64,000 nt of DNA. It comes from Candidatus Methanoperedentaceae archaeon GB37. GTDB taxonomy: Archaea; Halobacteriota; Methanosarcinia; Methanosarcinales; EX4572-44. Positions 6,893 to 25,018 of the stretch are shown piece by piece (the first letter of the stretch is position 1; every line of letters starts with the position of its first letter). A program made the translations under genes and the position numbers. The stretch spans positions 834,258-898,257 of the forward strand of contig LR991653.1 of assembly GCA_905171695.1 (NCBI GenBank), given 5' to 3'. The notes under the pieces are model-generated. The model was not told the origin of the DNA and did no database searches. It saw only the letters and a program-made list of their open reading frames with translations.

Positions 6893-6970
6893 GATGGATT
6901 ATAATAGAGTTAAGAAGGAAAGATTAGGCTTGTCATGGAATTACAAAGGACGGATAAAGAGGTTTTTGGA

Positions 6971-7747
6971 ATGATGAGACGAGTGTTAATAATGGCAATG
7001 CTTGTGAGCATGATTGTGTTTCCCGCAGTGGCTGATGGTGTCTTGGTAGAGGTCACACCGTCTTCTGTTGACTGTGAGACTGGTGACACGTTCACGGTTG
7101 AGATACTCGTTGATCCAGGAGGATATGAGGTCTATGGTGCACAGTACAATCTGATATTTGACCCATCAGCGCTTGAGTGTGTGAGCCAGACCGCAGGCGA
7201 CTTCCTGACACAGGACGGTGCAAGCTCGATCGAGGTCGTGAACACGATCGACAACACGATTGGTAGGCTTGAGTACGCTGAGACACGGATGGGAGCCGAG
7301 AGCGGTGTCACCGGGGCTGGAACACTTGCACAGGTCACGTTTAAGGTGATAGGTGAGAGTGGATCAAACCTTGAGCTAAAAGATGTGATCGTGAGCAATC
7401 CAAGCGCACAGGAACTGGAGACCTCGGTTGAGGATGGAGTCTGTCTCGTTAATGGAAACACACCAACACCTACACCTACACCTACACCAACGCCGACTGT
7501 AACAGCAACTACAACCGATGCAGGAGAACCGCCAAATCCAACCATAACTGTGACCGAGACCATACCAGAGACACCAGCTGTGACTGTAACAGCAACTGAT
7601 GCAGCTTCAACACCCGAATCGGCAGATACCCCTGCATCCACACCCGAGACTGCAGAAACGGGACCACCAAGATCTGCACCAGGCTTCGGCATCTTCACGA
7701 TATGCGCTATCATCCTCTCGATCTACATCGTTAAAAGGAGGTCTTAA
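6971..7747 (+). CDS. Cell-surface cohesin with PGF-CTERM-type archaeosortase anchor
   Basis: This is a 258-residue product from the preferred ATG at 6971 (GAGGT 7 nt upstream); an upstream in-frame ATG at 6935 would place 12 polar residues before the signal peptide. Modules: signal peptide (1-21), a single cohesin (about 23-164, GYEVYGAQYNLIFDPSALE), then a Thr/Pro-rich linker with a TP microsatellite (about 165-230). The end is SAPGFG, a hydrophobic segment and a basic tail KRRS. The PGFG-hydrophobic-basic end is the signature of PGF-CTERM sorting signals, which are processed by archaeosortase A and lipid-anchored. This makes it the best candidate for a wall-anchored cohesin that receives dockerin proteins. 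It carries no dockerin of its own. Confidence 0.85.
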   Translation: MMRRVLIMAMLVSMIVFPAVADGVLVEVTPSSVDCETGDTFTVEILVDPGGYEVYGAQYNLIFDPSALECVSQTAGDFLTQDGASSIEVVNTIDNTIGRLEYAETRMGAESGVTGAGTLAQVTFKVIGESGSNLELKDVIVSNPSAQELETSVEDGVCLVNGNTPTPTPTPTPTPTVTATTTDAGEPPNPTITVTETIPETPAVTVTATDAASTPESADTPASTPETAETGPPRSAPGFGIFTICAIILSIYIVKRRS

Positions 7748-8779
7748 GTGAGACAGGAGGTAACGGTCGCTTTTATCGCCGCACTCTGCCTTATTGTATT
7801 GCTAACAGCTTCAGGAGTAAGCGAACCTGCAGAGACAGACACCCTGCCAGAGGCTCCATTCCTGATAGATGGATACGTCTTCTATGAAGACGGGAGTGAG
7901 TGTAACGATCCAATGGTTAACATAACAAACCTGAATCAGAGTGAAACATGGAAGGCAGAGACAGATGAAACCTCTAACTACTATCAGCTTCTGCTCTCCC
8001 AGCGTGCTGAGGTAACAGCAGGCGATATCCTGAAGTTCAATGCTATAAGCCCGAGTGAGAGCCAGTTGAATATCACAGAGCATGCGACAACCCTTGATGA
8101 ACTGGAGAGTGGCAGGCTTTCCATCAACCTGACCCTGTCACCACCACCGTGTGTGAGCATTGACCCATCAGATCTCACAGTCCTGAGAGGAGAGACGTTC
8201 ACCGTTAATATAACGGTTGATCCACACGGTAGAGAGGTCTTTGGTGCAGAGTACACGCTAACATTCAACCCTGCGATCCTGCAGGTTGCAAATCAAAGAA
8301 AGGGTAATTTCTTGAGGCAGGATGGAAGCGACTCATACGTGGTTGTTAACAGGTTCAACAACACGCTTGGAAAGCTTGAGTATGGTGAGATGAGGATAGG
8401 AACATCCGATGGCGTGACTGGTGCAGGTGTGCTTGCCATGATCACGTTCAATCTTGCAGGCTGCGGATCAACCAGTCTCACACTCTCAAACGTGCTCTTA
8501 AGCGATCCGTCACCAGCACCGATCCCAGGTATCAAGACCAGCAATGGGAGCGTGAGAGGATGTATCTATGGCGATCTCGCACCATACCCTGCTGGTAACT
8601 GTGTAGTGGATATGGGAGATGTAATCCGGTTGTTAAATCACGTTCATGACAAGAAGAAGTACCCGATAAACGAGGATCTCGCTGACCTTGACCGTGATGG
8701 CGAGATCGATATGGATGATGTGATGCTCCTGCTACTCGTAGTGGGAGATCCAGATGAGTATGAACCTGAATCTCATTAA
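7748..8779 (+). CDS. Secreted beta-sandwich / cohesin / dockerin protein
   Basis: The 343-residue product starts with a GTG that immediately follows the previous TAA, with AAGGAGGT inside the end of the upstream gene; the two are surely translationally coupled. Modules: signal peptide (1-25), a small beta-sandwich (about 38-125, FLIDGYVFYEDGSECNDP), a cohesin (about 135-268, GREVFGAEYTLTFNPAILQVAN) and a dockerin (about 273-337, VVDMGDVIRLLNHV and GEIDMDDVMLLLLVVGD). The small N-terminal module is also found at the start of the giant protein (10740). The dockerin words DMGDVI and LLNHV recur at the end of the S-layer protein at 56797-59289, suggesting the same binding class. Confidence 0.85.
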   Translation: MRQEVTVAFIAALCLIVLLTASGVSEPAETDTLPEAPFLIDGYVFYEDGSECNDPMVNITNLNQSETWKAETDETSNYYQLLLSQRAEVTAGDILKFNAISPSESQLNITEHATTLDELESGRLSINLTLSPPPCVSIDPSDLTVLRGETFTVNITVDPHGREVFGAEYTLTFNPAILQVANQRKGNFLRQDGSDSYVVVNRFNNTLGKLEYGEMRIGTSDGVTGAGVLAMITFNLAGCGSTSLTLSNVLLSDPSPAPIPGIKTSNGSVRGCIYGDLAPYPAGNCVVDMGDVIRLLNHVHDKKKYPINEDLADLDRDGEIDMDDVMLLLLVVGDPDEYEPESH

Positions 8780-8809
8780 AAAATAAGAAAAATTTGGAGG
8801 TAGATTGAA

Positions 8810-10717
8810 TTGAGACAGATTGGAAGAGATGTGTTGATGGCTATAGCAGTCATCGTCTGTGTATTGCAGCTTGTACCATTAGCTTGTGCGGCAGGACCAA
8901 GTGTTACGGTTGATAGCCGTGATGTATCCCTTGGTGAGACGTTCACTCTCGATGTGAGAGTTGATCCGTGTGGCGCTGAGGTCTATGGTGCACAGTACAC
9001 GCTAACATTCGACCCAGCAATCTTACAGGTTGTAAGTCAGACAAAAGGCGACTTCTTGACACAGGACGGTGCAAGCTCGATCGAAGTCGTGAACACGATC
9101 AACAACACCCTTGGAAAGCTTGAGTACGGTGAGACACGGATGGGAGTGGAGAATGGCGTGACTCGGGCAGGCGTTCTCGCCACGATCGAATTCGAGGCTG
9201 TTGGAACCGGATCAACCGGTCTCACACTCTCAAACGTGCTCTTAAGCGATCCAAGTGCCCAGCCCATTGCCGGTGTTGTGCAAAATAATGGGACGGTCAA
9301 TGTTGGAGAATCACCGCCGACTGTGGTAGATCTCACGCCAACCGCTCTTAGCATCCCTGATCCAGCTTATGTGAACCATGACTATACGCTGGATGTAACG
9401 GTATCAAATCTTGAATCAGGTGATGCTTCAGCCTTCAACGTCACGTTAAAGGCTGATGGAATGATTGTGGATGATAAAAGAGTTAACAGTCTTACCGGGG
9501 ATAGCGATACCACTGTGATCTTTAACTGGAAGCCAGCTACTGTTGGAACCAGTACACTTCTCGTTGAAGTCGATCCAGATGACGAGATTGCTGAAACCGA
9601 CGAGCTTAACAATACACTGAGTGCAACCGTGGACGTAGTTGAAGCAGCAGGACCGAGTGTCACGGTTGATAGCCGTGATGTATCCCTTGGTGAGACGTTC
9701 ACGATCAATATAACCGTCGATCCACGGGGCGAGGAGATTTACGGAGCACAGTATGACCTTTACTTCGACCCTACGATCCTGCAGGTTGTAAGCCAGACAA
9801 AAGGTGATTTCCTGACACAGGACGGCGCAAGCTCGATCGAGATCGTGAATAAGTTCAACAACACGCTTGGAAAGCTCGAGTACGGTGAGACACGGATGGG
9901 AGTGGAGAATGGCGCGACTGGCACAGGCGTTCTCACCACAATCGAATTCGAGGCTGTTGGAACCGGATCAACCGGTCTCACGCTATCAAACGTGCTCTTA
10001 AGCGATCCAAGTGCACATGAGATTGGAGGAGTCGTGCTGAACGATGGAGCGGTCAACGTAGCAGGGACGCCAACTCCCACCCCAACACCTACGCCTACAC
10101 CAACGCCGCCACCACCAGGTGGGGCAATCGTAACGATCCCTGACGTCGCAGCAACAGGAACACTCACAGTCCCGATCAGAATCGAGAACGTGACAGACGC
10201 AGGCGCAATCCATCTGACACTCACCTATGACCCGGGCGTTGTCATCGTATCAAGAGCGTGCTGCAACTCAGACTTTGACACACTACTCGCAAACACCGAA
10301 GACGCCGCAAGAGGATCTATCACCCTCATCGCATACCAGACCCAAAACCCAGGTCTGAACGGCAATGTACTCGTCGCAAACGTGACTTTCATGGCACTCG
10401 GCCCCATCGGATCATCAACCCCACTCAACCTAAAGGTCACAACACTCACCGACGCAACACCAGAGTGCAACCCGATCCCACACTCAATCAGCAACGGAAG
10501 CTTCACGATACTCCTAAACGGCGACGTGAACGGTGACGGCAGAGTCGATGCCGCAGACTGCATGTACCTCGCAAAACACCTACTCGGAGTCTCAGGCTTT
10601 GAGACAATCATTGAAGACGCCGCAGACGTAAACGGCAACGGCAAGATCGAAGCAGGAGACTGCATGTACCTTGCAAAACACCTCGCAGGAATAAACGGAT
10701 TCGAAGAACTGAAGTAG
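8810..10717 (+). CDS. Triple-cohesin scaffold with CARDB module and C-terminal dockerin
   Basis: The 635-residue product starts at TTG 8810 (GGAGG at 8796-8800). Order: signal peptide (1-27); cohesin 1 (29-165); a CARDB-type adhesion sandwich (170-281, VDLTPTALSIPDPAYVNHDYTLDV); cohesin 2 (283-420), almost identical to cohesin 1; a TP-repeat linker (420-437); a more divergent cohesin 3 (438-563, GAIHLTLTYDPGVVIVS); and a dockerin (566-632, VDAADCMYLAKHLLG and IEAGDCMYLAKHLAG). Three cohesins on one chain is scaffoldin-like. Its dockerin is of a different sequence class from the others nearby. There is no membrane anchor, so it would be held through its dockerin. The 3' end is markedly richer in A and C on the coding strand than the 5' end. 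Confidence 0.87.
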   Translation: MRQIGRDVLMAIAVIVCVLQLVPLACAAGPSVTVDSRDVSLGETFTLDVRVDPCGAEVYGAQYTLTFDPAILQVVSQTKGDFLTQDGASSIEVVNTINNTLGKLEYGETRMGVENGVTRAGVLATIEFEAVGTGSTGLTLSNVLLSDPSAQPIAGVVQNNGTVNVGESPPTVVDLTPTALSIPDPAYVNHDYTLDVTVSNLESGDASAFNVTLKADGMIVDDKRVNSLTGDSDTTVIFNWKPATVGTSTLLVEVDPDDEIAETDELNNTLSATVDVVEAAGPSVTVDSRDVSLGETFTINITVDPRGEEIYGAQYDLYFDPTILQVVSQTKGDFLTQDGASSIEIVNKFNNTLGKLEYGETRMGVENGATGTGVLTTIEFEAVGTGSTGLTLSNVLLSDPSAHEIGGVVLNDGAVNVAGTPTPTPTPTPTPTPPPPGGAIVTIPDVAATGTLTVPIRIENVTDAGAIHLTLTYDPGVVIVSRACCNSDFDTLLANTEDAARGSITLIAYQTQNPGLNGNVLVANVTFMALGPIGSSTPLNLKVTTLTDATPECNPIPHSISNGSFTILLNGDVNGDGRVDAADCMYLAKHLLGVSGFETIIEDAADVNGNGKIEAGDCMYLAKHLAGINGFEELK

Positions 10718-10739: not shown

Positions 10740-13700
10740 GTGAGGCGATTGGTAGCGGTATTTTTAATCTCACTATTTATATTCCCGTTGGTATCTGCAG
10801 ATCTCAGAAAGGATCTCTCAGATAGCCTTCCACTCGGTGTGAGATCGCCTTCTGATGCTGAGACTCTGGTCTGCGGATACCTCTTTTACAGAGGGACCAC
10901 TGGCAGTGTGGAGATCAGAAACTTCAACAAGAGCTTAAGTTGGAATGCGAGGATACTTGATTCAAACCCGGATTTCTATTACCTCTATCTCAACTCGAGT
11001 GAGCTACAAGCAGGGGATACGATCCGGATCGATGCAACCTCGGGAGGTGAGCGTGTCGCCTTCAACCACACCGTTAGCGAGAGCGAGATTGCTTCGCATA
11101 TCTTGTGGCTTGATCTCATAGAGGATCTTGCAGTGATCGATGTGGTGATGCCAGATCTCTTCGTTGTGAACGAGAGTACTGGAATCTCCTCTACAATCGG
11201 GAACATCGGGAGGGTTTCGGTGGTTGATCAGTTCAATATCACCGTCTCGGTCGATGACGAGATCTTGAATGCCACAGCCTTTGTTGATCTGCCATTGAAC
11301 CCGGGCGAGAACGTCACGTTAAGGTTTGACTGGACTCCTCTGGAGGCTGGATCACACACCCTCAGAGTAGCGGTCGATCCTGAGGGGGCGGTGGTTGAAG
11401 GAGACTCCTCGAATAATCTCTTTCTTACTGATGTGGAGGTGGTCGAGAGCCTTCTCCCAGATCTTCTGATTGCCAGACTCGATCTTCCCTCTCTTCTCTT
11501 CCCCAACTCCTCTGTCTGGATAAATCTCTCCATCCTGAATGCTGGCTGGAGTGATGTGAAGAGATCGTTCAACGTCACCATCGAAAGTGAAGCAGATGGA
11601 GAGTTGATAGGCTCTGAGGTGATCGATGGGCTACCTGCTGGAGAGTTTAAGAATGTCTCCATTCTCTGGAGTCCTGTTGAGACTGGCAGGTACACGCTTA
11701 CGCTTATCGTCACCATTGACCCGGAGGATGCAATCGAGGAGTGTGATGAAGAGAATAACCGGGTGGAGAGAACGGTCAATATCATCGAGACGAAGGTGAT
11801 AAGGGTTCCAGAGGATTACGATAGTATTCAGGGTGCGATCGATGCTTCGTACCCTGGCTGGGCAGAGATCGTTGTCTCTCAGAGGGAGGATGGTAAGCCA
11901 TACAATGAACCCATTATGATTCCTGAGGAGTTCTCACATGTGAGCCTCACTGCAGATGGCACGGTTGTGCTGAGATACGATGGCGGGACTCTTATCACGA
12001 TCCTGGGGGATAACTGCACCGTTCAGGGTTTTGATCTGAGGGATGGGTGGACCGGGGGCACCTACTCGAACTACCCTGATCCGGTTATCAGGCTCTGCTC
12101 TGATCACAACACGATCAGGGATAATTATATTTACTACACTTGGGGTGGGATCTATCTCGAGAACTCCTCGTATAATACGATTGAGAATAACACGATCGGT
12201 GAGGGTGTTAAAATACCCATTGCGATATGGGGCAACAAGAGCATAATCGTGAACAACACGGTAATCGGTGAGAAGGATGATGCAATCTCTCTTCTCGGTG
12301 CAACACATGAATCCACGGAGAAACCTGCGCATCAAAACATCCTGCGAAGAAACGTGTTTTATGAGTATATTCAGCTTGAAGGTTCTGATAATCTCATATA
12401 CGATAATATCTTCCTCTCACCATGGGTTGAGTGTGATTCTGAGGATAACATCTACAACACAACAAAGATTCCTGGGACGAACGTCATGGGTGGACCTTAT
12501 CTTGGTGGAAATTACTGGGCTTCATACAGAGGGGTTGATGATGACGGAGATGGGATAGGTGACACCCCTTATTTGTATGATGAGCGTCCGCTTGTGCAAT
12601 TGAAGCCTGATCTGCTTGTAACAGATGTTGCATGTGATAACTCCAGTGTTAGAAACGTCACCGCGAGGGTGGTTAACAATGGCACTGCGAATGCGTCCAT
12701 ATTCAACGTCTCGCTCAAGGTAAACGGGCGCACTATCGATGAGAAATATGTGGACTCGCTCAATCTGAGTGAGGAGACGAGTGTTAATTTTACATGGACG
12801 CCATCGAGGCCGGGTAACTACAACCTCCAAGTAATCGCTGACACCTCTGGGTTGGTGGATGAAGTGAATGAGACGAACAACGAGAAGAGTCTTGAGGTTG
12901 TGGTGGGAGAGACCCTGGAGCCTGACCTTACACCCCTGTCTCTTTCTCCCCTGACCTTCTATCGGAACCACTCCAATGTGGTGAGTGTAAAAGTTGGAAA
13001 TATCGGGGGTGGTGATGCAACCCAAGGGTTCAATCTTTCCCTCTTTCTGAATGATACACTTATCGCAAGTAAAACGATTGACTCGCTCAATGCAAGCGAG
13101 GTTGCGGATGTGGAGTTCAACTGTACGCCTGAACCTGAATTTTTTGGAAATTACATCATGAGGGCGTGGATCGACTCTGATAACCAGATCATCGAATCTG
13201 ATGAGACAAACAACAATATAACGATGGATGTGAGTGTCGTTAACGTCCCAGAACCCGATCTAATAGTAACAGGGATTGAGCCGCTCCAGTTTGTCGTGAA
13301 TGAGACCGGCACGGTTCGTGTTACGATCAATAACAGTGGTTTTTGGGGTGCAGAGGCATTCAACGTCTCGATTTTCGTCAACGGCAGCCTCACAGGGATC
13401 GTGAGAATGGACGCACTTGCTGCTGAGAGTGGACTGACAGCGGAGTTTGGGTGGACTCCAACCTCGACAGGAAGATACAACCTGACGGCACGTGTAGATC
13501 CTGATGATTCGGTGGATGAACTGGATGAAGCAAACAACAACATGACTGTAGAGGTCCGTGTAACCGATGCACCGATGCCAGATCTCACCGTAAACGAGAT
13601 CGGGGTACCTGATGTGATCTATATCAACACGAGCAATATAATAACCGCGATCATCAGAAACGCTGGCACCAACGACACAGGCACATTCAACATCTCACTC

Positions 13701-16700
13701 TGTGAGAACAGCACAACTCTATCAACAATATGGCACGATTCCATCCCACCGGGAACAAACGAGATCGTTGAACTATACTGGGCGCCGTCCAGGGATGGAA
13801 ACCACACGATCAGGGTTGATCTCGATCCAGAGAACGAGGTTAATGAGTCGAACGAGACGAACAACTGGCTCGATATAAATGTTACTGTAAAGCCAGAGAT
13901 AAGAGTTGGAGTTCTTATAGAGTGCTGGGACAAGAGAACATATTATGAGGAGATAGCCCTTAAAGAGGGAGCAAGTATCCTTGATGCAACAGAGAGAGCC
14001 TGTTTCGACTTTGGTATTGCGTTTGAGCAAAAAAATGGTGTTGTGACGAGAGTTGATGGAGTCTTCAACCCATACCTCTACAGATACAACAGGAAGAGTG
14101 AGGCATGGGATATATGGGCTTACTCGTCTGTATCCTCTCTCACGCTGAACGACTCTGACCTGATCGCATGGACATCAGGAGATGTTCCACCACCTATAAA
14201 GTCCGATCTAGCTCCGATAGAGATTGTAACGCCAGTAAGGACCTATATGAACTTCACAAATATGCTTGGAGTCAGGGTAGAGAATAAGGGATTGATTGAA
14301 GCAGAGAACTTCAACATAACCCTTGCAGTCGATGGAGAGATTATAGGATCGGAAAGAGTCGATCGTATCGAGCCGAGGGAGTTAATTGAGATCTGTTTTG
14401 AGTGGATGCCGAATGCCACTGGAAATTTCACACTGATCGCCGTGGTCGATCCTGCAAACGAGGTGGATGAGCTCTCTGAGGATAATAATGAGATCGTGGC
14501 GGGTGTGGGGGTGGAGAATGTCTCGTCTGTCGATGTCCCAGGTGATTATCCAACGATCCAGGATGCAATCGACCACTCTCCTGACGGGACAAGAGTCCAT
14601 CTTGCAGGCGGAGAGTATGTGGAATGCCCTGAACTGAAGATCATTAATAGACGCGATCTCATGATAATCGGAGAGTCCCGGGAAGATACAAGGATATACA
14701 CCGAGCTGAAGATAAAGGACTCAGATAACATCGTCCTCTCAGGTTTAACAATCTCGCCAAGAGAGAGGTGGTGCAGTGATACAAGTGAGAAGGCACGCCA
14801 CTACGAGGTTCTCAGTGTGAGAAACTCGAGCAATATCACGATCTCTGATTGTGTATTACGCTGCATTCCATACAAGGGATGGGAGGGGGGCGAATGGACG
14901 AACCTGACCGGTATATCACTCCATGGATCACGGCGGTGCACCATCTCAAAGAACATCATCCATGGAGGAACTCAGGGCATTTACATCGATTCAAACTCCA
15001 CGATGAACACGCTAACCGAGAACAGCATCACAATCGAGCTCACAGATCGATTGGCTGGCGTGGAGGTCGGAGGCTCTAACAACGCGATACACCACAACAA
15101 CCTCTATACAACATATGAAGTTGTACACTTCCACGATGACACTCCTCCCTATACAGAGGTCTGTGCGGCTGCATCCGATGATGGACTCAACAATTCATGG
15201 GACCACAACTACTGGGGATGCTACTTAAAAGAGATCTTTAATGAGGGCGATGCCGATAGGCGTTATGAAGTGTCGTCATGGTCTGATGCCTGTAGAGGAA
15301 GTGATGGAGAGAACGATGGGGCATACGATCACCCCTACAGATGCCCGCTTGGCGGTAGGTATGATAATGTGACATCTATCGAGGACGTGCCAACCGGGTC
15401 TCTCAGAGATGACCAGCCGCTTGTGAGACCAGCCGCGCTTATCGAGACCGGGGTCGATGCCATCGTAGTACCTTCGAGGATCTATGCCGGGCAGATGAAC
15501 ACGATAATCGGGATTCTCAAGCGCCGCGGGGACGACGTTGCCCCGAGAAGCTTCAATGCAACACTCAAGATCGAGGGAGGGAAGGTTGATCAGAGGTCGG
15601 TGAGACTTGCTGGGTGGCTATCAAGACCAGAGACGAAGGGATTTGTGAGGTTTGGATGGAGACCCACGGATGCTTCTGATTATAACCTGAGTGTGAGAGT
15701 TGAGGAGTGGACCGGTGACCCTGCCGATAACGAGCTTGCAATCAACGTCACCGTCGTCAACTCTTCGTTTGAAGGAGAGTACAGCGAGAGGATAAGGGAT
15801 GGACTCGATTACCTCTATGGTGCGCAGAATATTGGCGGGAGCATCGGAGGATTATCGCAGACGCCATGGGCAGTGATGGCAATAACCGCGGCAGGAGAGA
15901 ATCCTCACGAGTGGGGACGCCTCATCGATTATCTGAGGGAGTATCCATCTGAGAACTACAGGAGTGGTAATCAGGTCTTTTTAACTCCATCTGACTTGGC
16001 AGCAATGGTTCTCGCAATCTCGTCTGCAGGCGAGGATCCACGGGACTTCGGAGGCATGAACTATGTTCTATACCTGAAGTCATACTATGATGGAGAGAAG
16101 ATGGGATATGATAACACTAACTATGACCCGTGTGATGATGCTCTGACGATCCTCGCACTGATCTCAGCAGGCGAGAGCCCTCACTCTCCGATCATCCAGA
16201 GCCTGAGAGAGCACCTGATAAGAAGCCAAAGACCTGATGGATCATGGGAGTTCACACACCACCCGGAGGGCGGGAGGGTGAGCCACACCGCGATCGCGAT
16301 CCAGGCACTTGCATCAGCAGGATATGCCCAGGATACATCTGTAACGCATGCTTTGGACTATCTTCACTCTGTTCAAAATGATGATGGAGGATTTCCAGAT
16401 GAGAGCGGGTATTCAAACTCGCTTGCAACAGCACGTGCGATCCAGGCAATAATCTCCGCAGGTGAGAACCCTGATTCCTGGAGAAGTAGGGATGGAAAGA
16501 CACCCGTTGACTGCCTGACAGGTCTTCAGCACTCTGAGGGATACTTCAAGAAGATCGATGGATCCTCGCCATCCTCGTCGAGAGTTCCGTGCACGTCTGC
16601 CGCGGTAACAGCACTTGCTGGGAGACCGTATCCTCTCGGAATCCTGAAGTCAGACTCGCCTCGTTACCCTGACATGCACCCGATCGGTGGAATAGAGACG

Positions 16701-19700
16701 CCAAGTGAGATCTATGTGAAGACGAACGCCACTCTGAAGCTCAAGGTTAAAAGCAATGGCGGGCGGTTCAACGTTACGCTTCTTGCAGACGGGAGACCGG
16801 TCGATGAAGAGACTGTGCGCACTCCATGGGCTGATGACGAGACCGAGGTCGTCTTCACATGGAAGCCTGACGACGATGGGGTGTACAACCTGACCGCTCT
16901 CATAGATCCTGATAACAGGATAATAGAGTCTGATGAAGAGAACAATCGGGCAGAGAGGGTTGTATCGGTGAGTCTTCCAGATCTCTATCCATCCACGATC
17001 GAACTCGGGACGAACATCGTGAACATGGTAAACCTGGTGAATGTGAGAGTGGCAGGGATGACCGATGAAGCGTTCAATCTGACCCTGGAGGACAATGGCG
17101 AGATGGTTGATGAGAAGCGGCTGTACGGATTGAAAGGGTCTAAAACCGTATCATTCGAGTGGAAGAGCAACGAAACAGGCGTCCATCTGCTAACGGCCAC
17201 GGTGGATTCAGGGCATGAGATAAGTGAGAGCTGCGAAGAGAACAACCGACTATCAAGGCGAGTGAGTGTAGTACTTCCAGATCTCAGACCCGCTCGAATC
17301 GATATACTAGGAGAGGTATACTCCAATGCCACAAACCCGATAGATCTGCAGATAGATGGTGTGGCAGAGCGGTTCAATCTGACACTCTATGTGAACGGGA
17401 CTATAGTTGACAGAGAGACGGTATCATCGGTATATGCAGATTCTGAGTTGAGTGCAAGGCTCTACTGGACGCCAAACCGGACCGGTCGATATGATGTTAG
17501 GGTATTTCTCGACTCGGATGATTATGTGCGGGAACTCGATGAAAAGAACAACAATATAACGAGAGTGGTCGAGGTAATACTTCCAGATCTCACACCCATC
17601 GGGATAAAGAGTGATGAGCACGTCTTCGCAAACGAGACCAACCAGATCATGGTAGAGGTTAGAGGCGCGGGAAATGGGTTCAATGCAACACTCACAGAGA
17701 TTAGAGGAAACAATACAGAAGTGATAGGAAACGCCACAAACATCTCCTTCTATGGAGAGACATCGATCGAGTTTGAATGGGTGCCTGAAGAGAATGGGTC
17801 TCACAACCTCACAGTATGCCTCGACCCGGATTGTGACCTCCCAGAGTCAAACGAGACCAACAACGAGATGAGAGTAGAGATACCTGTATACGATAGGATA
17901 CCGATAATACTGAAGAACCCGCGGGGTGGAGAGCGGGTCTCTGGAGATCTGGAGATACGATGGGAGATCTCATACGATAAGCCTGTCACGATCGATCTTG
18001 CCTACAGCCCAAATGGAGGCGAATCATGGGTGAAGATAAAAGAGAACCTTAAAGGAAGTTCCTATCACTGGGATACAAGGGGCCTAATCGATGGCTTCCA
18101 GTACATGATAAAGATCATTGCAAAAGGAGAGTACGCCTATGGCGAGGACAGGTCAGATCTCTTCATGATACACAATATGAACGAGGAGGCAGGAACTGGG
18201 CTCACAACGACACGATACTTTCTCTCAACAGCACCTGATAATAAGACCCTTGCATGGGTCTCACCAGATATCGGTGCAAATCCCTCCTCATCCATCATCG
18301 TTGCAGACGGCAAGGTCTTTGTCTACTGTAAAGACGGACACATCGCATCTCTCAATGAATCAGATGGAGAGGTGGAGTGGAATAAAGAGATCGCCCCTCC
18401 TGAGTTCGGGTCATGGGCAACACCAGCATACCACGACGGATACGTCTTCATCGCATCTGGCAACCCAGGAAGACTCTACTCGATAGACGCTGACACGGGA
18501 GATATTGAATGGAGTTGGGAGTTTCCAGATAAGGGTGCGAGTATAAACAGCGGGCCCTGTATTAGAGATGGGAAGATCTTCATTGGGAGCACAGAAGGTC
18601 ACTACTATGCTGTAAGTGAGAGGCATAAGCATGGTAGCATCGAGCAGTACTGGAGCTTCCCTGCTGGTGGGCTTTCAACACCTGCTGCCGCATACGGAAA
18701 CGTCTACTTCGGAGCTCCGGATGAAGATCGCTTCTATGCTGTCGATGCAGATAATGGGACAGAAGTCTGGAAGATAACAACAACAGCGGGAGTCTACGGA
18801 TCTCCGACTGTTGCAAACGGCGTGGTATACGCAGCAACCTGTGCGATGGAGAGTGGAAGCGACAATCTCTATGCGATAGACGCGATAAGAGGGAGTATCA
18901 GGTGGCAGTGTGGTGAAGTCCTGCCGACCGATTCGGCTCCTGCCTATACACCATGGGGCTACCTCTATATCACAGGAGGCTATGATGAAGCAGCCACATA
19001 CTGCCTGAACGCAGCCACTGGTAATGTTACATGGAAAAATGAAACTGTAGGCTGGTGGACAAACTCGCCAGCAGTATCGGCTGATAAGAAGGTCTTTGTC
19101 GGAAAGAGCTCTGGCAAGGGTATGCATTTTGAGTATAAGGGTCTCTACTGCCTCGATGCAATGACCGGAGAAGAGCTATGGCATTCCAACGAGGGTGGGT
19201 CTTCACCTTTCATAGCTAACGGAAGAGTGTACACGACAGGCGGAGGGAGAGTCTATGCATTCGGTTCAAAGGATCATCCTGATCTAATACCACTGAAGAT
19301 AACCACAGATCCACTGATATACGAGAATACAAGCACAACCATCAATGTCAGTGTCAAGAACGTGGGGGGTGCTCCCGCTGGAGCCTTCAATGTTACCTTA
19401 TCATGCAAGCGAGAAGGAAGTGTGGATAAGACCGAGTTACAGGGATCGATCACGTACCTCAAGTCGCAAAAAACGAATAACGTTTCGTTTGAATGGACTC
19501 CCGCGGAGCCAGGTAATTACAGCATCCAGGCAATGGTTGACCCTGAACAGACCTTGAACGAAGAAGACAATACGAACAACATTCTCAGAAGAGAGGTTGA
19601 AGTTCAGCCGATGCCTGAGACAGATCTCACTGTAACAAGTCTTGATGCGCCGAGCAGTCTCTACGTGGGCGAGTCATGCCAGATCAGGACAGAGATTCGT

Positions 19701-20261
19701 AACCTCGGAGAGCCTGCCACTGAGTTCGATGTGAGCCTCGCCTCTGATGGTGCAGAGATAGGGGTACGTAGCATCACAGAACTCGGTTTTATGGAGAATA
19801 AACCAGTAGAGTTCACCTGGACGCCGTCAAGTCCTGGAACGTACACACTCACCATATTTGCAGACTGTTACAAGAGAATCAGCGAGCCAGACGAGGGTAA
19901 CAACATGGAATCGATCGAAGTAAGGGTGCAAAAGCCACTCCCAGAACTGGGGCCGATCGGCGGTGGTGGCTGGGGTGGAGAGTCTGGAAACGGAACTGGT
20001 AATGGATCGGGAACTGGCGATCAGAGAGGCGAGATGGTGATTCCGATCAATACAACCGATTCAAGCATGGGTGATAAGATCAGAAAAGCCCTTGGAAGAC
20101 CATTTGTTAAGATGGCTTCGGATGAAGCGATGAGTGCAGGTGGAATGAGTGGCGGCAAGCTTTATACGTTGATCATCATGATAGCCATTGCGCTCTCCAT
20201 TGTGGTATATGGCTTCTGGAGAGAGACGCGATTCACAGGCAGGGTTAAGAGGAGAAGGTGA
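10740..20261 (+). CDS. Giant membrane-anchored multidomain surface protein (CARDB, beta-helix, toroid, DUF4430-like, propeller)
   Basis: The 3173-residue protein starts at GTG 10740 with a signal peptide (1-20). Approximate map: small sandwich like that of the 7748 gene (42-127); CARDB modules 132-352; right-handed beta-helix, NosD-like (355-620); CARDB 622-1053; DUF4430-like domain (1054-1155, EEIALKEGASILDATE); CARDB 1155-1262; second beta-helix (1263-1564, VPGDYPTIQDAID); CARDB 1568-1675; alpha/alpha toroid of the terpene-cyclase/TED type (1680-1965, repeats such as DDALTILALISAGESP and SHTAIAIQALASAG); CARDB 1984-2384; fibronectin-like module (2386-2484); PQQ-type propeller (2490-2845); CARDB 2848-3066; Gly-rich linker; TM (3141-3160); basic tail. 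About fourteen CARDB modules in all. Toroid plus DUF4430 are the two folds found in transcobalamin-type carriers. The last base overlaps the ExbB-like gene. No dockerin is seen. Confidence 0.9.
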   Translation: MRRLVAVFLISLFIFPLVSADLRKDLSDSLPLGVRSPSDAETLVCGYLFYRGTTGSVEIRNFNKSLSWNARILDSNPDFYYLYLNSSELQAGDTIRIDATSGGERVAFNHTVSESEIASHILWLDLIEDLAVIDVVMPDLFVVNESTGISSTIGNIGRVSVVDQFNITVSVDDEILNATAFVDLPLNPGENVTLRFDWTPLEAGSHTLRVAVDPEGAVVEGDSSNNLFLTDVEVVESLLPDLLIARLDLPSLLFPNSSVWINLSILNAGWSDVKRSFNVTIESEADGELIGSEVIDGLPAGEFKNVSILWSPVETGRYTLTLIVTIDPEDAIEECDEENNRVERTVNIIETKVIRVPEDYDSIQGAIDASYPGWAEIVVSQREDGKPYNEPIMIPEEFSHVSLTADGTVVLRYDGGTLITILGDNCTVQGFDLRDGWTGGTYSNYPDPVIRLCSDHNTIRDNYIYYTWGGIYLENSSYNTIENNTIGEGVKIPIAIWGNKSIIVNNTVIGEKDDAISLLGATHESTEKPAHQNILRRNVFYEYIQLEGSDNLIYDNIFLSPWVECDSEDNIYNTTKIPGTNVMGGPYLGGNYWASYRGVDDDGDGIGDTPYLYDERPLVQLKPDLLVTDVACDNSSVRNVTARVVNNGTANASIFNVSLKVNGRTIDEKYVDSLNLSEETSVNFTWTPSRPGNYNLQVIADTSGLVDEVNETNNEKSLEVVVGETLEPDLTPLSLSPLTFYRNHSNVVSVKVGNIGGGDATQGFNLSLFLNDTLIASKTIDSLNASEVADVEFNCTPEPEFFGNYIMRAWIDSDNQIIESDETNNNITMDVSVVNVPEPDLIVTGIEPLQFVVNETGTVRVTINNSGFWGAEAFNVSIFVNGSLTGIVRMDALAAESGLTAEFGWTPTSTGRYNLTARVDPDDSVDELDEANNNMTVEVRVTDAPMPDLTVNEIGVPDVIYINTSNIITAIIRNAGTNDTGTFNISLCENSTTLSTIWHDSIPPGTNEIVELYWAPSRDGNHTIRVDLDPENEVNESNETNNWLDINVTVKPEIRVGVLIECWDKRTYYEEIALKEGASILDATERACFDFGIAFEQKNGVVTRVDGVFNPYLYRYNRKSEAWDIWAYSSVSSLTLNDSDLIAWTSGDVPPPIKSDLAPIEIVTPVRTYMNFTNMLGVRVENKGLIEAENFNITLAVDGEIIGSERVDRIEPRELIEICFEWMPNATGNFTLIAVVDPANEVDELSEDNNEIVAGVGVENVSSVDVPGDYPTIQDAIDHSPDGTRVHLAGGEYVECPELKIINRRDLMIIGESREDTRIYTELKIKDSDNIVLSGLTISPRERWCSDTSEKARHYEVLSVRNSSNITISDCVLRCIPYKGWEGGEWTNLTGISLHGSRRCTISKNIIHGGTQGIYIDSNSTMNTLTENSITIELTDRLAGVEVGGSNNAIHHNNLYTTYEVVHFHDDTPPYTEVCAAASDDGLNNSWDHNYWGCYLKEIFNEGDADRRYEVSSWSDACRGSDGENDGAYDHPYRCPLGGRYDNVTSIEDVPTGSLRDDQPLVRPAALIETGVDAIVVPSRIYAGQMNTIIGILKRRGDDVAPRSFNATLKIEGGKVDQRSVRLAGWLSRPETKGFVRFGWRPTDASDYNLSVRVEEWTGDPADNELAINVTVVNSSFEGEYSERIRDGLDYLYGAQNIGGSIGGLSQTPWAVMAITAAGENPHEWGRLIDYLREYPSENYRSGNQVFLTPSDLAAMVLAISSAGEDPRDFGGMNYVLYLKSYYDGEKMGYDNTNYDPCDDALTILALISAGESPHSPIIQSLREHLIRSQRPDGSWEFTHHPEGGRVSHTAIAIQALASAGYAQDTSVTHALDYLHSVQNDDGGFPDESGYSNSLATARAIQAIISAGENPDSWRSRDGKTPVDCLTGLQHSEGYFKKIDGSSPSSSRVPCTSAAVTALAGRPYPLGILKSDSPRYPDMHPIGGIETPSEIYVKTNATLKLKVKSNGGRFNVTLLADGRPVDEETVRTPWADDETEVVFTWKPDDDGVYNLTALIDPDNRIIESDEENNRAERVVSVSLPDLYPSTIELGTNIVNMVNLVNVRVAGMTDEAFNLTLEDNGEMVDEKRLYGLKGSKTVSFEWKSNETGVHLLTATVDSGHEISESCEENNRLSRRVSVVLPDLRPARIDILGEVYSNATNPIDLQIDGVAERFNLTLYVNGTIVDRETVSSVYADSELSARLYWTPNRTGRYDVRVFLDSDDYVRELDEKNNNITRVVEVILPDLTPIGIKSDEHVFANETNQIMVEVRGAGNGFNATLTEIRGNNTEVIGNATNISFYGETSIEFEWVPEENGSHNLTVCLDPDCDLPESNETNNEMRVEIPVYDRIPIILKNPRGGERVSGDLEIRWEISYDKPVTIDLAYSPNGGESWVKIKENLKGSSYHWDTRGLIDGFQYMIKIIAKGEYAYGEDRSDLFMIHNMNEEAGTGLTTTRYFLSTAPDNKTLAWVSPDIGANPSSSIIVADGKVFVYCKDGHIASLNESDGEVEWNKEIAPPEFGSWATPAYHDGYVFIASGNPGRLYSIDADTGDIEWSWEFPDKGASINSGPCIRDGKIFIGSTEGHYYAVSERHKHGSIEQYWSFPAGGLSTPAAAYGNVYFGAPDEDRFYAVDADNGTEVWKITTTAGVYGSPTVANGVVYAATCAMESGSDNLYAIDAIRGSIRWQCGEVLPTDSAPAYTPWGYLYITGGYDEAATYCLNAATGNVTWKNETVGWWTNSPAVSADKKVFVGKSSGKGMHFEYKGLYCLDAMTGEELWHSNEGGSSPFIANGRVYTTGGGRVYAFGSKDHPDLIPLKITTDPLIYENTSTTINVSVKNVGGAPAGAFNVTLSCKREGSVDKTELQGSITYLKSQKTNNVSFEWTPAEPGNYSIQAMVDPEQTLNEEDNTNNILRREVEVQPMPETDLTVTSLDAPSSLYVGESCQIRTEIRNLGEPATEFDVSLASDGAEIGVRSITELGFMENKPVEFTWTPSSPGTYTLTIFADCYKRISEPDEGNNMESIEVRVQKPLPELGPIGGGGWGGESGNGTGNGSGTGDQRGEMVIPINTTDSSMGDKIRKALGRPFVKMASDEAMSAGGMSGGKLYTLIIMIAIALSIVVYGFWRETRFTGRVKRRR

Positions 20262-20866
20262 TGAATATATTTACCACACTCCAGTCGTCGATCTATTACA
20301 TCTCAACGTACCTTCTCTACCCGGTTATTATTGCACTCCTCATCTCTGTGGCGTTCATTCTCGTTGAGATGGGCTCTTTCTTCTATGAGACGTACATGCG
20401 TCTCTCTGGACGATGGGTCTCTGAGTTTGATGGAGAGATCGTCTCTGGCAGGTTTGTCAGTGCATTTCTGAGAGAGCTTGACGAGATGAAGAGAGGTGAT
20501 AAGAACTTCGAGGCAAAGCTCGAGAAACACCTGAACGACGTTGAGTACATGATATCGAGACGGCTTGAGAAGACGCGCCTTGCTGCAAGAATCGGTCCCA
20601 TGTTCGGGCTCATGGGGACACTGATCCCGATGGGACCGGCTCTTGTCGGGCTTAGCCACGGAGATATAGAAGCACTCGCTGAAAACCTGATAATCGCATT
20701 CGGAACAACGGTTATAGGGCTTCTCGTTGGCGCGGTCTCGTACTCGATTGCAACGATCCGGACGCGATGGTATGATCGTGAGATGGACGACATGGAGTTC
20801 ATAGCAGAGATATTAACAGGTGGATTGCACGATGAGATACATGAAGAGACGGAAGATAAGAGATAG
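20261..20866 (+). CDS. MotA/TolQ/ExbB-family proton-channel protein
   Basis: The ~201-residue membrane protein has an N-terminal membrane segment (about 15-38), a cytoplasmic stretch and two further membrane segments. It carries the family signature ARIGPMFGLMGTLIPMGPAL in the second segment and IAFGTTVIGLLVGAVSY in the third. Family members are H+ or Na+ channel subunits that convert ion flow into mechanical work on an outer partner. The ATG at 20261 overlaps the stop of the giant gene (TGATG), with GGAG 6 nt upstream; a GTG at 20258 is the alternative. The direct overlap with a giant surface gene and with the DUF2149 gene indicates one operon and probably one complex. Confidence 0.88.
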   Translation: MNIFTTLQSSIYYISTYLLYPVIIALLISVAFILVEMGSFFYETYMRLSGRWVSEFDGEIVSGRFVSAFLRELDEMKRGDKNFEAKLEKHLNDVEYMISRRLEKTRLAARIGPMFGLMGTLIPMGPALVGLSHGDIEALAENLIIAFGTTVIGLLVGAVSYSIATIRTRWYDREMDDMEFIAEILTGGLHDEIHEETEDKR

Positions 20867-21188
20867 AGGGAAGAGACGGTTTGAAGAAGATCCGATGAGC
20901 GGGGTTGCAAACCTATTCGACGTTGCAATGATATTCGCAGTAGCCCTCTTGATCGCACTCGTATCATCCTACCAGATAACAGACCTCCTCGATCCAACAA
21001 AAGACGTTACAATCGTTAAAAACCCGGGACAACCCGACATGCAGGTCATCGTGAAAGAAGGAAAAGAGATAAAGACCTTGAACGTAACAGAAGGGATGAC
21101 CGAGGTTGAGATCGCAGGAAGAGTAGGAACGATATACAACACACCAGACGGTGGGATGGTATACGTGCCAAGCGCAAAAGAGGGGTGA
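20832..21188 (+). CDS. DUF2149 membrane protein, ExbD-like partner
   Basis: This is a 118-residue product from the ATG at 20832, supported by AGGTGG 8 nt upstream; it overlaps the channel gene by 35 bp. It has a basic N-terminus, one membrane segment (about 24-44, VAMIFAVALLIALVSSYQI) and a short extracytoplasmic domain rich in charged beta-strand sequence (VTIVKNPGQPDMQVIVKEGKE). The single-pass topology, with the soluble domain outside and next to an ExbB homologue, parallels ExbD/TolR/MotB. DUF2149 genes are known neighbours of MotA/TolQ/ExbB genes in methanogens. The function is unproven. The coding strand is strongly A/C-rich, as is usual here for the end of an operon. Confidence 0.8.
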   Translation: MRYMKRRKIRDRGKRRFEEDPMSGVANLFDVAMIFAVALLIALVSSYQITDLLDPTKDVTIVKNPGQPDMQVIVKEGKEIKTLNVTEGMTEVEIAGRVGTIYNTPDGGMVYVPSAKEG

Positions 21189-21255: not shown

Positions 21256-22404
21256 CTATGTCTCTCCGCTGAGTATTGATTCTGTCTTGTCGTTGGTTCG
21301 ATGGTTGATCTTCTGGATCTTTATCAGGTATTCGTCCCTGATCTTCACAGGGTCGCTGAAGACCGCGTCGATTCCAAGCGTGCGAAGGTGTTCTTTGAAT
21401 TTTTCAGATGTTTTAAGACTCTTTACTCGTATTTTAACGTTTTCAACAAGTTTTTCTCCGCTCTGTACTCTTTTTATGCTCTGTATCATCGGTTTTAAGA
21501 TGCTCTCTCCGAGCTGGAGAGCGCGTCTCTCTATCTCGGCTGGTCCTTCTCTCCACTCTACTGATTGGAAGGCTTCTCTCATTACTCGTGAGTAGAAGAA
21601 GCTTCGGGCGTAGTCGTGGTAGTATGTGAAGGCGTATTTGAGATCGTCGCAGTTGCTCTGTGAGCTTGTGTACTTCAGGGGTGGGTCTCTCATCTCAGGG
21701 TCCTTTATCACAACGCCTTCCCGTCCGCTTGCTCCAAGCATCTGTATTATCTCTCTGATCTTATGGTGGGCTTCATTGAGGGGGTATGTGCCGAAGAGTC
21801 TGGTGGATTGTATGCCGTATTCTTCTGCGACTTCCTGCCTCTCTGCTACCGTGAGTGGTTTGCCTCCTTTTTTTTCGTGTATGTCGAATAGGAAGAACTG
21901 GAGTGATTCGATCCCGTAGGTCTCTTTTGGAGCGTAGGGGCTATCAGGTCCAACCATCTCTCCACAGAGTACCCATTCTGGGTGATCGGTGAATATCTTT
22001 TCTGGTATCAGGCTCTCTGCTTTCTCTGTGGTGTATGGGCAGATGTGTCCGCCTCTTGTGAGTGCAACGATCTGGCCGTTGATTGAGGCGACGCGTGTGT
22101 TGTATCCGTTCATCTTTTCCTCGACTGCAACACTCTCTGTTGTGAAGTGTGTTCGAAGTGCCGGTTCTAGCATCATGGCTCGGTGTATCTTGGGAAATCC
22201 CCACACCACTTCGTACGTTTCCCAGGGGAATATTGCGGTTCCGACTTCGATCTTTGAGATGCTCCTCTCAAGGATCAGGTGGTGCGTTGGTGTGCTGTGA
22301 AGTGTTCCTCTCTTGAGGAGACCTCTTATGCGCTGTTCGGTTGTGTGTAATAACTCTGCAATCCGTTTTATATCTATATCCATGTCTTCTGGGTCTTTTC
22401 TCAT
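21256..22404 (-). CDS. ATP-dependent RNA ligase, archaeal Pab1020 family
   Basis: The 382-residue length is typical of the homodimeric archaeal Rnl3/Pab1020 family. Motif I with the adenylylated lysine is VEEKMNGYNTRV (about residue 98); further nucleotidyltransferase motifs include EWVLCGEMVG and EGVVIKD. The C-terminal region (VENVKIRVKSLKTSEKFKEHLRTLG) matches the family's dimerisation and C-terminal part. The enzyme seals RNA 3'-OH and 5'-phosphate ends and can circularise RNA. It is the last gene of a four-gene minus-strand operon, and its ATG overlaps the preceding CBS gene's stop by 4 bp (ATGA). It converges with the DUF2149 gene across 67 bp. Confidence 0.9.
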   Translation of the reverse strand: MRKDPEDMDIDIKRIAELLHTTEQRIRGLLKRGTLHSTPTHHLILERSISKIEVGTAIFPWETYEVVWGFPKIHRAMMLEPALRTHFTTESVAVEEKMNGYNTRVASINGQIVALTRGGHICPYTTEKAESLIPEKIFTDHPEWVLCGEMVGPDSPYAPKETYGIESLQFFLFDIHEKKGGKPLTVAERQEVAEEYGIQSTRLFGTYPLNEAHHKIREIIQMLGASGREGVVIKDPEMRDPPLKYTSSQSNCDDLKYAFTYYHDYARSFFYSRVMREAFQSVEWREGPAEIERRALQLGESILKPMIQSIKRVQSGEKLVENVKIRVKSLKTSEKFKEHLRTLGIDAVFSDPVKIRDEYLIKIQKINHRTNDKTESILSGET

Positions 22405-23186
22405 TGTCTCTTGGCAAGTGCTCGTATTATGTTTCTTCGTGTGATTATTCCACGGAGTTCCTCGTTTCCGTCAAGTACAACTACTCCGCCAATATTCTCT
22501 CTGAGCATGGTTTGAACTGCCTCACCTATCGGCGCCTCCATCCCCACTGTTATGACATCTCTCTTCATTATGTCTTCGACAAGCAGTCTCTTTATCCGGT
22601 CATCCTGGTGGTGGCTTGGTACAAGGTCTCTGAAGGCTCGCATCGCTTTTGCTACATCCCGTTCTGTCACGATTCCTACAAGCTCTTCGTCTTCCACTAC
22701 TGGGAGTCTTCCGATGTTCTCATCGAGCATCAGCCGTCGTGCATGTGATACTCTATCAGTGGGTTGCACGGTTATGAGATCCGTTGTCATTGCATCTTCC
22801 ACGCGTTCTTCAAGGTTTACTGCACTCTTCAGGATCTCACTGGGTGTTATCCATCCGAGGATCTCGTCTCCGTCCATCACGATGAGAACTCCGCCTGTTC
22901 GATCGATTATGGTGATCGCTTCTTCGAGTTTCATGTCAGGGAAGACTTTTGTGAAGTTGTCGGTTGTTGCACTTGCAACGTGCAGGGATGATGCTGGCAT
23001 TCCTGCCTTCTTCCGTGATCCGAGACTTCGCAGTATATTTCTTATGGTAACAATCCCGACAATCTCGCCATTGTGCGTGACAAGCAGTCTTCGAAGACCG
23101 TTCTTCTCCATCACGTCCATGGCATGAGAGAGCGTCTCTCCCTTGTCGATGGAGATTGGCTCTGCCATAATATCTCTTATCTGCAT
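22401..23186 (-). CDS. Four-CBS-domain protein (third of three in tandem)
   Basis: The 261-residue protein consists only of CBS motifs, four of them forming two Bateman pairs: MQIRDIMAEPISIDKGETL, VASATTDNFTKVFPDMKLEEA, VEDAMTTDLITVQPTDRV and VEDIMKRDVITVGMEAP, each followed by a GIVTIRNIL- or GIVTERDVA-type helix. CBS pairs usually bind adenine nucleotides or SAM. No catalytic or DNA-binding domain is fused. It lies 3 nt after the second CBS gene and overlaps the RNA ligase start by 4 bp, so nucleotide-sensing control of the ligase is a reasonable inference. Confidence 0.88.
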   Translation of the reverse strand: MQIRDIMAEPISIDKGETLSHAMDVMEKNGLRRLLVTHNGEIVGIVTIRNILRSLGSRKKAGMPASSLHVASATTDNFTKVFPDMKLEEAITIIDRTGGVLIVMDGDEILGWITPSEILKSAVNLEERVEDAMTTDLITVQPTDRVSHARRLMLDENIGRLPVVEDEELVGIVTERDVAKAMRAFRDLVPSHHQDDRIKRLLVEDIMKRDVITVGMEAPIGEAVQTMLRENIGGVVVLDGNEELRGIITRRNIIRALAKRQ

Positions 23187-23189
23187 ACT

Positions 23190-24050
23190 TTATCTCCTAA
23201 TTGCATCTTTTTTCACTATATCTTTTAAAATACCATCGGATTCTACAATTCCGACCAGCGTATCATCGATAACAAGCAATGATTTGGTTTTCATGGATAC
23301 CATCATCTTTGCAGCGTCCACTGCCAGTGCATCACTTGTGATCGTCTTATCAATTGGCGCCATTATGTCCTCTGCCACCAGCGGCACCTCACGAACGTAC
23401 CTGTAACTCCTCCTACCACCAGTACTGTCCTTTCGTGCCATTTTAACCTCTTTTTCTGGAGAATCTCTATGTAAAAAGTCTGCGAATACGATGCTGTCAG
23501 ACGAGATCAATCCAATCGGGTTTTCCTCGTCCATCACCACCACTGTGCCGACGCTCTTCTCTTCCATCTCGCAGAGCACATGATCGATTGTGTGGTGCCG
23601 ATTGACGGTCACTATATCGGTCTCCATGATCTCAGCAACCTTTGTATCATACGTCTTCTTGGAGTAATGCCTGATTAGATCCTGTTTTGTGACGATACCG
23701 ACCAGTTTTCTCCTTCCATCGTCTTCTTTCACCACTAACATGCTACTGATACCGTTTTCAAGCATCATCTCTGCGGCTTCTGCTGCACTTGTTTCGTGGG
23801 GGATGGTGAGCGGGTTTTCGGTCATGACAATCCTCACTGGAACGTCATCAATCGGGCGGCGGCGCCAGATCGGCTCTGCCTGACTCAGTCGTTTTGCAAT
23901 ATCTTCCTTTGTTACGATCCCGATCGGTTCATCGTCTTCGATCACTACGAGCCGCCCTATGCCATGCTTGAGCATGAGGTTTCTTGCCCTTGCTATGGTC
24001 TCCTGTGGTGCTACGACGTAGACCTCTGGGTTCATGCATTCTTTTATCAT
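23190..24050 (-). CDS. Four-CBS-domain protein (second of three in tandem)
   Basis: The 286-residue protein has four CBS motifs: IKECMNPEVYVVAPQETI, VRIVMTENPLTIPHETSA, VAEIMETDIVTVNRHHTI and AEDIMAPIDKTITSDALA. The acidic-turn helices are GIVTKEDIAKRL, GIVTKQDLIRH, GLISSDSIVF and GIVESDGIL. A loop of about 30 polar residues (near residues 193-222, RDSPEKEVKMARKDSTGGRR) separates the last two motifs and is absent from the neighbours. It sits 29 nt after the first CBS gene and 3 nt before the third. It is presumably a cytoplasmic adenine-nucleotide sensor with no attached effector. Confidence 0.87.
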   Translation of the reverse strand: MIKECMNPEVYVVAPQETIARARNLMLKHGIGRLVVIEDDEPIGIVTKEDIAKRLSQAEPIWRRRPIDDVPVRIVMTENPLTIPHETSAAEAAEMMLENGISSMLVVKEDDGRRKLVGIVTKQDLIRHYSKKTYDTKVAEIMETDIVTVNRHHTIDHVLCEMEEKSVGTVVVMDEENPIGLISSDSIVFADFLHRDSPEKEVKMARKDSTGGRRSYRYVREVPLVAEDIMAPIDKTITSDALAVDAAKMMVSMKTKSLLVIDDTLVGIVESDGILKDIVKKDAIRR

Positions 24051-24079
24051 ATCTTGCCATCCTCGAGAGAGAGGTTATA

Positions 24080-25018
24080 TTAAGGTTGTACTAAAGACTT
24101 TATGAAATCTCTCGCTGTTATGATCCCGACGAGTGTCTCGCCGTCAACAACAGGGAGTGAGCCTATCCCGTGTTCCACCATCAGGTCAGCAGCCTCTCCG
24201 AGATCCATCGTAGGGGTAGCTGTCACCACTTCCTTTCTTATCAATTCCTTGGCATGCACGCTCAGTGCTTCTTCAGAGTCACCACTCACGAGTTTGTTGA
24301 ATATCTCACCGCTTGCAAGGTATCGCAGTACGTCAGATGCTGTGATCACTCCGAGGAGCACTCCTTCTCGTATGATGGGAAAACGTCGGAATCCATGGGT
24401 TATCATGCTGTTTGTAACCTCGCCGATGGGATGGTCTGGTGTTATACTGACAACCTCTCTTGTCATCCACTCCTCCACGGTACTGCCTGTCGTGATGCCA
24501 CTGAGCAGCCATACAAAATCCTGTTCAGATATGATGGCTCTGACCCGTTCATCATCGTCGACGATAGGAACGCCCCCGATCTTCTTATCGATCATGGTGT
24601 GGAGAGCGTCTTTGAGTGAACTCTTCTCGCTAAGGGAGATCACGTTCTCTTCCATTATCTCTCTCACGCTCTCATTCACCGCTGCAAGCAGGTTTCCATG
24701 AAATCGGTGCTCCAACAGGTTGTGGCGCAGACCACCACCGATGAAGTCGGCGATGTCGAGACTTGTCACGATTCCCTTGAGACGGTGCGTGCCAGCATCC
24801 ACTATTGGTAGCCGTCTGATGTTGTAGTCGCGCATCGTTCTGGCAGCACCCATAATGGTGGTGGTGGGCGGGACCATAACAACCTCTCGCGAGGCAATTG
24901 TCATCACATCTCCTTCGCGATCTGATATTCGTGACTTAAAATCGAGCGATCCAAGATCTTTGATATACGCATCTCCTCTTCTCTGTCTCGGAACATTTTT
25001 GTCGTTCAGAACCATCAT
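24080..25018 (-). CDS. Four-CBS-domain protein (first of three in tandem)
   Basis: This is a 312-residue product from ATG 25018. The frame is open to 25075, but the upstream start lies before the likely transcription start, and GGTGA immediately precedes the 25018/25015 ATG pair. After about 30 leader residues (VPRQRRGDAYIKDLG) come four CBS units: VMTIASREVVMVPPTTTI, VREIMEENVISLSEKSS, VEEWMTREVVSITPDHP and AKELIRKEVVTATPTMDL. Each has a matching helix such as GIVTSLDIADF or GIITARDFIKSL. It is the first gene of the CBS-CBS-CBS-RNA ligase operon. Confidence 0.87.
   Translation of the reverse strand: MMVLNDKNVPRQRRGDAYIKDLGSLDFKSRISDREGDVMTIASREVVMVPPTTTIMGAARTMRDYNIRRLPIVDAGTHRLKGIVTSLDIADFIGGGLRHNLLEHRFHGNLLAAVNESVREIMEENVISLSEKSSLKDALHTMIDKKIGGVPIVDDDERVRAIISEQDFVWLLSGITTGSTVEEWMTREVVSITPDHPIGEVTNSMITHGFRRFPIIREGVLLGVITASDVLRYLASGEIFNKLVSGDSEEALSVHAKELIRKEVVTATPTMDLGEAADLMVEHGIGSLPVVDGETLVGIITARDFIKSLVQP

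Follow-up and report, generated by a model that had tools for sequence, protein, structure and literature searches.

The 64,000-nucleotide stretch of DNA analyzed here (the window) is part of the 1.92-Mb genome, assembled as one contig, of Candidatus Methanoperedentaceae archaeon GB37. Three consecutive genes lie on its plus strand: one for a giant surface protein of 3173 amino acids with a signal-like N terminus and a single C-terminal membrane helix (positions 10740 to 20261), one for a 202–amino acid channel subunit of the ExbB/HmuU type (20258 to 20866; an ATG start is possible at 20261), and one for a 122–amino acid single-pass partner of the DUF2149/HmuV type (20820 to 21188; an ATG start is possible at 20832). 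Given these ATG starts, the overlaps of 1 and 35 bp reported in the original prediction hold; with the longest open reading frames, they are 4 and 47 bp. All three genes are on one strand, and the gene next downstream is convergent.

Directly upstream of the giant, six consecutive genes (1303 to 10717) encode proteins with PQQ, cohesin, PKD, and dockerin domains, one of which has three cohesins and a dockerin and is scaffoldin-like. On the minus strand (21256 to 25075), a gene for a Pab1020-type RNA ligase and three genes for proteins with four CBS domains each converge on the trio. Genes for the condensin partners ScpA and ScpB stand in tandem in this archaeon at 25177 to 27035. Between 48000 and 50000, the GC content falls to 31%, compared to about 46 to 50% around it, which may reflect acquired DNA or coding sequence of an unusual kind. 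No corrinoid genes, no riboswitch or other Rfam family, and no CobN/HmuS-type chelatase were found within the window, and a search of the trio and its immediate neighbors found no TonB or outer-membrane TonB receptor.

The channel subunit matched PF01618 (E = 4.9e-13; 49.4 bits, cut-off 22.9), and the product of the third gene matched PF09919 (E = 1.6e-28). The channel residues needed for ion flow, on whose presence the original prediction depended, are in place: the motifs GxMGTLIPxGPAL and FxTTVxGL are kept almost throughout ~43 nonredundant ExbB sequences, and the TM2 and TM3 threonines are conserved, without exception in archaea. In the window, two invariant residues, Thr121 (GLMGTLIPMGP; 20618 to 20620) and the second Thr of the pair Thr150-Thr151 (FGTTVIGL; 20705 to 20710), correspond in the alignment to the TM2 and TM3 Thr, respectively, of Escherichia coli ExbB. 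Polar Thr is present in both pore-lining helices. A profile of the giant-linked ExbB subset aligned with E. coli ExbB (5sv0) at E = 8.2e-4. The conserved Asp sought in the DUF2149 membrane helix was found as Asp34 at the head of that helix (NLFDVA; 20919 to 20921), the position expected of an ExbD/TolR-like partner; it is kept in all 40 nonredundant archaeal sequences and in 75 of 77 open reading frames in named loci.

Like the ExbB-ExbD-TonB and TolQ-TolR-TolA systems, the trio combines an ExbB-type subunit carrying the TM2/TM3 Thr with a single-pass partner whose helix is headed by Asp. It differs from them in that no match to ExbD/TolR was found in the sequence of DUF2149, that TonB and a TonB receptor are missing, and that the driven protein is itself membrane-anchored. 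We discarded the identification of DUF2149 as ExbD by sequence, as a profile of 25 DUF2149 sequences found no ExbD/TolR in the Protein Data Bank (PDB) and Pfam recognized only DUF2149 in the protein. The AlphaFold2 (AF2) model of its outer part was of low confidence (pLDDT 67, pTM 0.34), too weak for a fold search. Since there is no ExbD sequence match and the outer domain is poorly modeled, we call DUF2149 ExbD-like with regard to function only.

The pair of small genes had been taken for part of an undescribed system. This claim was dropped, because the pair corresponds to HmuU-HmuV of the hmu heme operon (HmuYRSTUV) of Bacteroidota, where a gene for a MotA/TolQ/ExbB protein is followed by one for a DUF2149 protein and accompanied by the CobN-type HmuS (PMC10434189, PMC12583661); it is also conserved in methanogens beside CobN. 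It has been suggested that HmuUV draws on the membrane ion gradient (PMC12583661, PMC10434189), and the DUF2149/ExbB-type pair has been linked to TolQ (PMC9425974). In both cases, an ExbB gene has a DUF2149 gene immediately after it, and such pairs stand in operons with a CobN-type chelatase. In contrast, hmu has an outer-membrane TonB receptor and serves heme, while the archaeal trio has a giant anchored partner, no outer membrane, and a context that points to corrinoids; a CobN/HmuS-type chelatase is missing from the window, although CobN adjoins a second pair elsewhere in the genome.

The repeats of the giant comprise 13 CARDB domains, two NosD/β-helix blocks, and a PQQ/BamB-type β-propeller (approximately 18087 to 19259). 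Two further domains are an α/α toroid (residues 1677 to 1971; 15768 to 16652) of the squalene-cyclase/prenyltransferase repeat fold, to which the transcobalamin N-domain also belongs, and a domain resembling the transcobalamin C-domain (β-grasp, DUF4430-type; residues 1047 to 1155; 13878 to 14204). Neither cohesin nor dockerin is present. In transcobalamin, B12 is held between an α/α toroid and a β-grasp domain. Pfam recognized neither DUF4430 nor any other family in residues 1047 to 1155, and a sequence search of the PDB gave no identification; the fold was seen only via structure prediction and fold search. The AF2 model of these residues, built from two sequences, had a pLDDT of 83.8, and the top Foldseek matches in the PDB were haptocorrin (E = 2.9e-4) and transcobalamin (E = 3.3e-4, TM 0.64), with matches to these carriers spanning E values from 2.9e-4 to 1.5e-3. 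By its predicted fold, the domain is of the transcobalamin C-domain type. It was detected in seven giants (that of the window and those of L063, L079, L081, L082, L084, and L101) and went undetected in some others. A link between the toroid and transcobalamin by sequence failed: the nearest relatives are squalene cyclases, and one relative has a weak Cobalamin_bind match (E = 5.6e-4). The toroid half of the likeness to B12 carriers is therefore weaker than the β-grasp half.

Prokaryotic proteins in which a toroid is fused to a β-grasp domain have been predicted to bind B12 (PMC1796856). Like these bacterial relatives (Burroughs et al. 2007, PMC1796856), and like transcobalamin, haptocorrin, and intrinsic factor, the giant is a secreted protein that has both a toroid and a β-grasp (SLBB) domain. 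It differs in being an anchored archaeal protein of 3173 residues in which a long distance separates the two domains; its ligand binding is a prediction, and it is encoded together with an ion-driven motor.

Recurrence of the trio in other archaeal genomes was a test set by the original prediction, and the arrangement is conserved. DUF2149 occurs in 93 of 295 genomes of the phylum, Methanosarcina acetivorans also has a DUF2149 protein, and the complete trio was also found in Argoarchaeum, ANME-1, ANME-2, and a Syntrophoarchaeum-like genome. A giant with CARDB, PQQ-propeller, and toroid domains stands directly upstream of ExbB-DUF2149 in L043 (whose ExbB is 72% identical to that of the window), Argoarchaeum, ANME-2c, other ANME-2-related genomes, and several ANME-1 genomes. 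Since the stop/start overlap between giant and ExbB recurs in at least 13 other loci and a second set of giant, ExbB, and DUF2149 is encoded elsewhere in the GB37 genome, the arrangement is well above chance. Downstream of this second pair lie genes for an anchored 530-residue protein and a CARDB giant whose tail is of the same kind; beside it is a divergent cluster coding for a BtuF-like binding protein, a FecCD permease, an ABC adenosine triphosphatase, and CobN. FecCD and CbiZ occur together at 458 to 461 kb of the same genome.

Corrinoid genes accompany the trio in several relatives. In both Argoarchaeum genomes, a gene for CobQ (cobyric acid synthase; 608 to 610 bits, cut-off 273) follows on the same strand. 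An ANME-1-related genome (L065/L134) has the order giant-ExbB-DUF2149-BtuF-x-BtuC-CbiB-CbiZ, and in four other ANME-1-type genomes, DUF2149 is followed by BtuF, in one of them by BtuF-BtuC. Most methanogens examined have DUF2162-ExbB-DUF2149 together with an anchored CobN-like protein. In three ANME-1 loci (L039, L040, and L041), each cluster contains two ExbB-DUF2149 pairs, between which lie two SAM-methyltransferase genes, a gene for a NosD-type anchored protein, and DUF2162. Gene context is independent support for a corrinoid cargo.

We consider it reasonably probable that the trio is an ion-driven system for the capture of corrinoids (a B12-type cofactor or precursor) at an archaeal surface without an outer membrane; energized uptake of tetrapyrroles or metal chelates in general is more probable still. 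For corrinoids speaks the presence of β-grasp domain and toroid, both halves of the B12-carrier fold, in one giant. Against them speak the lack of a corrinoid gene in the 64-kb window, the proximity of the toroid to squalene cyclases, and the fact that the β-grasp link comes from predicted structure only. The β-grasp domain also went undetected in some giants, and some relatives in Thermoleophilia are without the membrane Asp. Furthermore, since the bacterial HmuUV serve heme, the energizer is not corrinoid-specific.

The cargo could accordingly be a chelated metal or a metallo-tetrapyrrole of another kind (heme, siroheme-type, or Ni-porphinoid), with the giant still acting as receptor. HmuUV was assigned to heme import in Bacteroides (PMC12583661, PMC10434189), the heme dechelatase HmuS is the nearest PDB match of the CobN-like proteins that accompany the bacterial pair, and the Peripla_BP_2/FecCD families carry siderophores and heme besides B12. 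We nevertheless regard a noncorrinoid cargo as unlikely: CobQ, CbiB, and CbiZ beside the giants are corrinoid-specific, the fold match is to B12 carriers, and the bacterial operons are preceded by cobalamin riboswitches. The latter operons, of the form TonB receptor-DUF2162-ExbB-DUF2149-BtuF/CbiZ-CobN, were found in delta-proteobacteria, with a riboswitch at 12 of 18 loci in a set of genomes drawn from the phylum of one delta-proteobacterial record. They resemble the archaeal loci in the energizer pair, the corrinoid context, and a tail box on the anchored CobN, but have an outer-membrane receptor instead of a giant, while the archaeal trio is without a riboswitch.

The C terminus of the giant carries a candidate signature for coupling to the motor. 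A putative coupling box, ALGRPF (type [VIA]xG[YHKRF]x[MF]; residues 3117 to 3122; 20088 to 20105), precedes the membrane helix (approximately 20145 to 20210), which is followed by the juxtamembrane motif GFWRE (type G[YFI]xxE; 20211 to 20225). The G and E of the latter are the sole invariant residues in 13 energizer-linked proteins with differing outer parts. The G[YFI]xxE tail is present in 22 of 26 anchored proteins encoded directly upstream of ExbB, compared to 7 of 123 others, two of these seven being energizer-linked giants missed by the distance rule. Most giants, most CobN-like proteins, and an anchored BtuF, whose outer parts are unrelated, have the box 15 to 35 residues N-terminal of the helix. 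The pattern was defined on those same sequences; among the remaining anchored proteins, none of the 41 near ExbB has it, and of the 29 far from ExbB only one does, the second giant of the GB37 genome. In loci fetched afterwards, the form V.G[YF] was present in 13 of 15 anchored CobN proteins compared to 2 of 44 other proteins, a semi-independent test, as the choice of this form followed an initial inspection of these loci; the looser form of the box was present in 15 of 15 and 8 of 44, respectively. Since the sequences are related to each other, p-values computed from these counts make the evidence look stronger than it is. A profile of the giant's C terminus matched only the two energizer-linked giants in the GB37 genome. 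In two Methanolliviera loci (L067 and L069), a BtuF-type protein with the coupling box and a GYVLE tail is encoded directly upstream of ExbB-DUF2149, with CobN adjoining.

These tails bear on the possibility that ExbB-DUF2149 energizes another partner, such as a CobN-like chelatase or an ABC importer, and that the giant is merely co-transcribed. The methanogen pair indeed sits with CobN and has no giant. However, the stop/start overlap of giant and ExbB is conserved in many lineages, the box and GxxxE tail motif are common to energizer-linked proteins, and the second pair in the genome comes with a giant of its own that carries this tail; we regard another partner as improbable. A motor that drives the S-layer or a cohesin-dockerin mesh (its assembly, stretching, or signaling) rather than uptake, as the original prediction had it, would fit the cohesin/dockerin cluster upstream, a cohesin-dockerin-PQQ protein upstream of the L043 giant, and the mostly adhesion-type CARDB, β-helix, and propeller repeats of the giant, but is equally improbable and, for the mesh, was rejected, as cohesin and dockerin are both missing from the giant and most relatives have no such neighbors, several having corrinoid genes; nothing points to either target, and context and domains indicate corrinoid capture. 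What stands of the energized surface machine originally proposed is an ion-driven energizer coupled to the giant, which is supported by the TM2/TM3 Thr, the DUF2149 Asp, the conserved arrangement, and the coupling signature in the giant's tail; the novelty of the pair and the S-layer or mesh target are not supported.

From the observed genes, domains, conserved residues, recurrence, genomic context, and tail signature, we infer how corrinoid capture may proceed. The corrinoid would be bound between the toroid and the transcobalamin-like β-grasp domain of the giant. ExbB and DUF2149 would form a motor of the HmuUV/ExbBD type in the cytoplasmic membrane, and DUF2149 or the channel would engage the coupling box and C-terminal helix of the giant. 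Ion flow could then cause the giant to move or open and to release the ligand near the membrane, where it may be handed over to a BtuF-BtuCD importer encoded elsewhere in the genome.

In a broader reading, which we put forward tentatively and rate slightly below an even chance, ExbB-DUF2149 would be a general ion-driven motor, used with or without an outer membrane, that acts on anchored clients with a common tail module and in archaea serves corrinoid capture across the S-layer. As parts of the same proposal, the clients would be giant corrinoid catchers, CobN/HmuS-like chelatases, and a BtuF, with unrelated outer domains, and the VxG[YF]xM-type box 15 to 35 residues before the helix would be the client-side counterpart of the TonB box.

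Cells with an outer membrane, which the archaeon does not have, are known to take up large cofactors in short supply by means of ion power. A powered corrinoid catcher, if confirmed, would extend such uptake to cells without an outer membrane. The corrinoid supply route of methane- and alkane-oxidizing archaea matters because these organisms depend on corrinoid enzymes. If correct, the proposal would also give DUF2149 a function, make the tail signature a testable means of finding clients of the motor, and suggest a role for the archaeal CobN/HmuS homologs, the function of which was described as unclear by the authors of the HmuS study (PMC12583661). The energizer pair is of a known kind, and its likely cargo is new: an outer-membrane-free archaeal version with a transcobalamin-like giant client and common tail was not found in the open-access literature searched.

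Relatives of the trio also occur in Thermoleophilia, where a gene for a toroid protein precedes ExbB-DUF2149 or BtuFCD lies divergently beside the pair; in nine Thermoleophilia loci, no Rfam families were found, riboswitches included. Some of these relatives (L141, L151, L190, and L191) have Tyr, Thr, or Val in place of the membrane Asp of DUF2149 and keep the order toroid-ExbB-DUF2149, perhaps representing a nonconducting variant.
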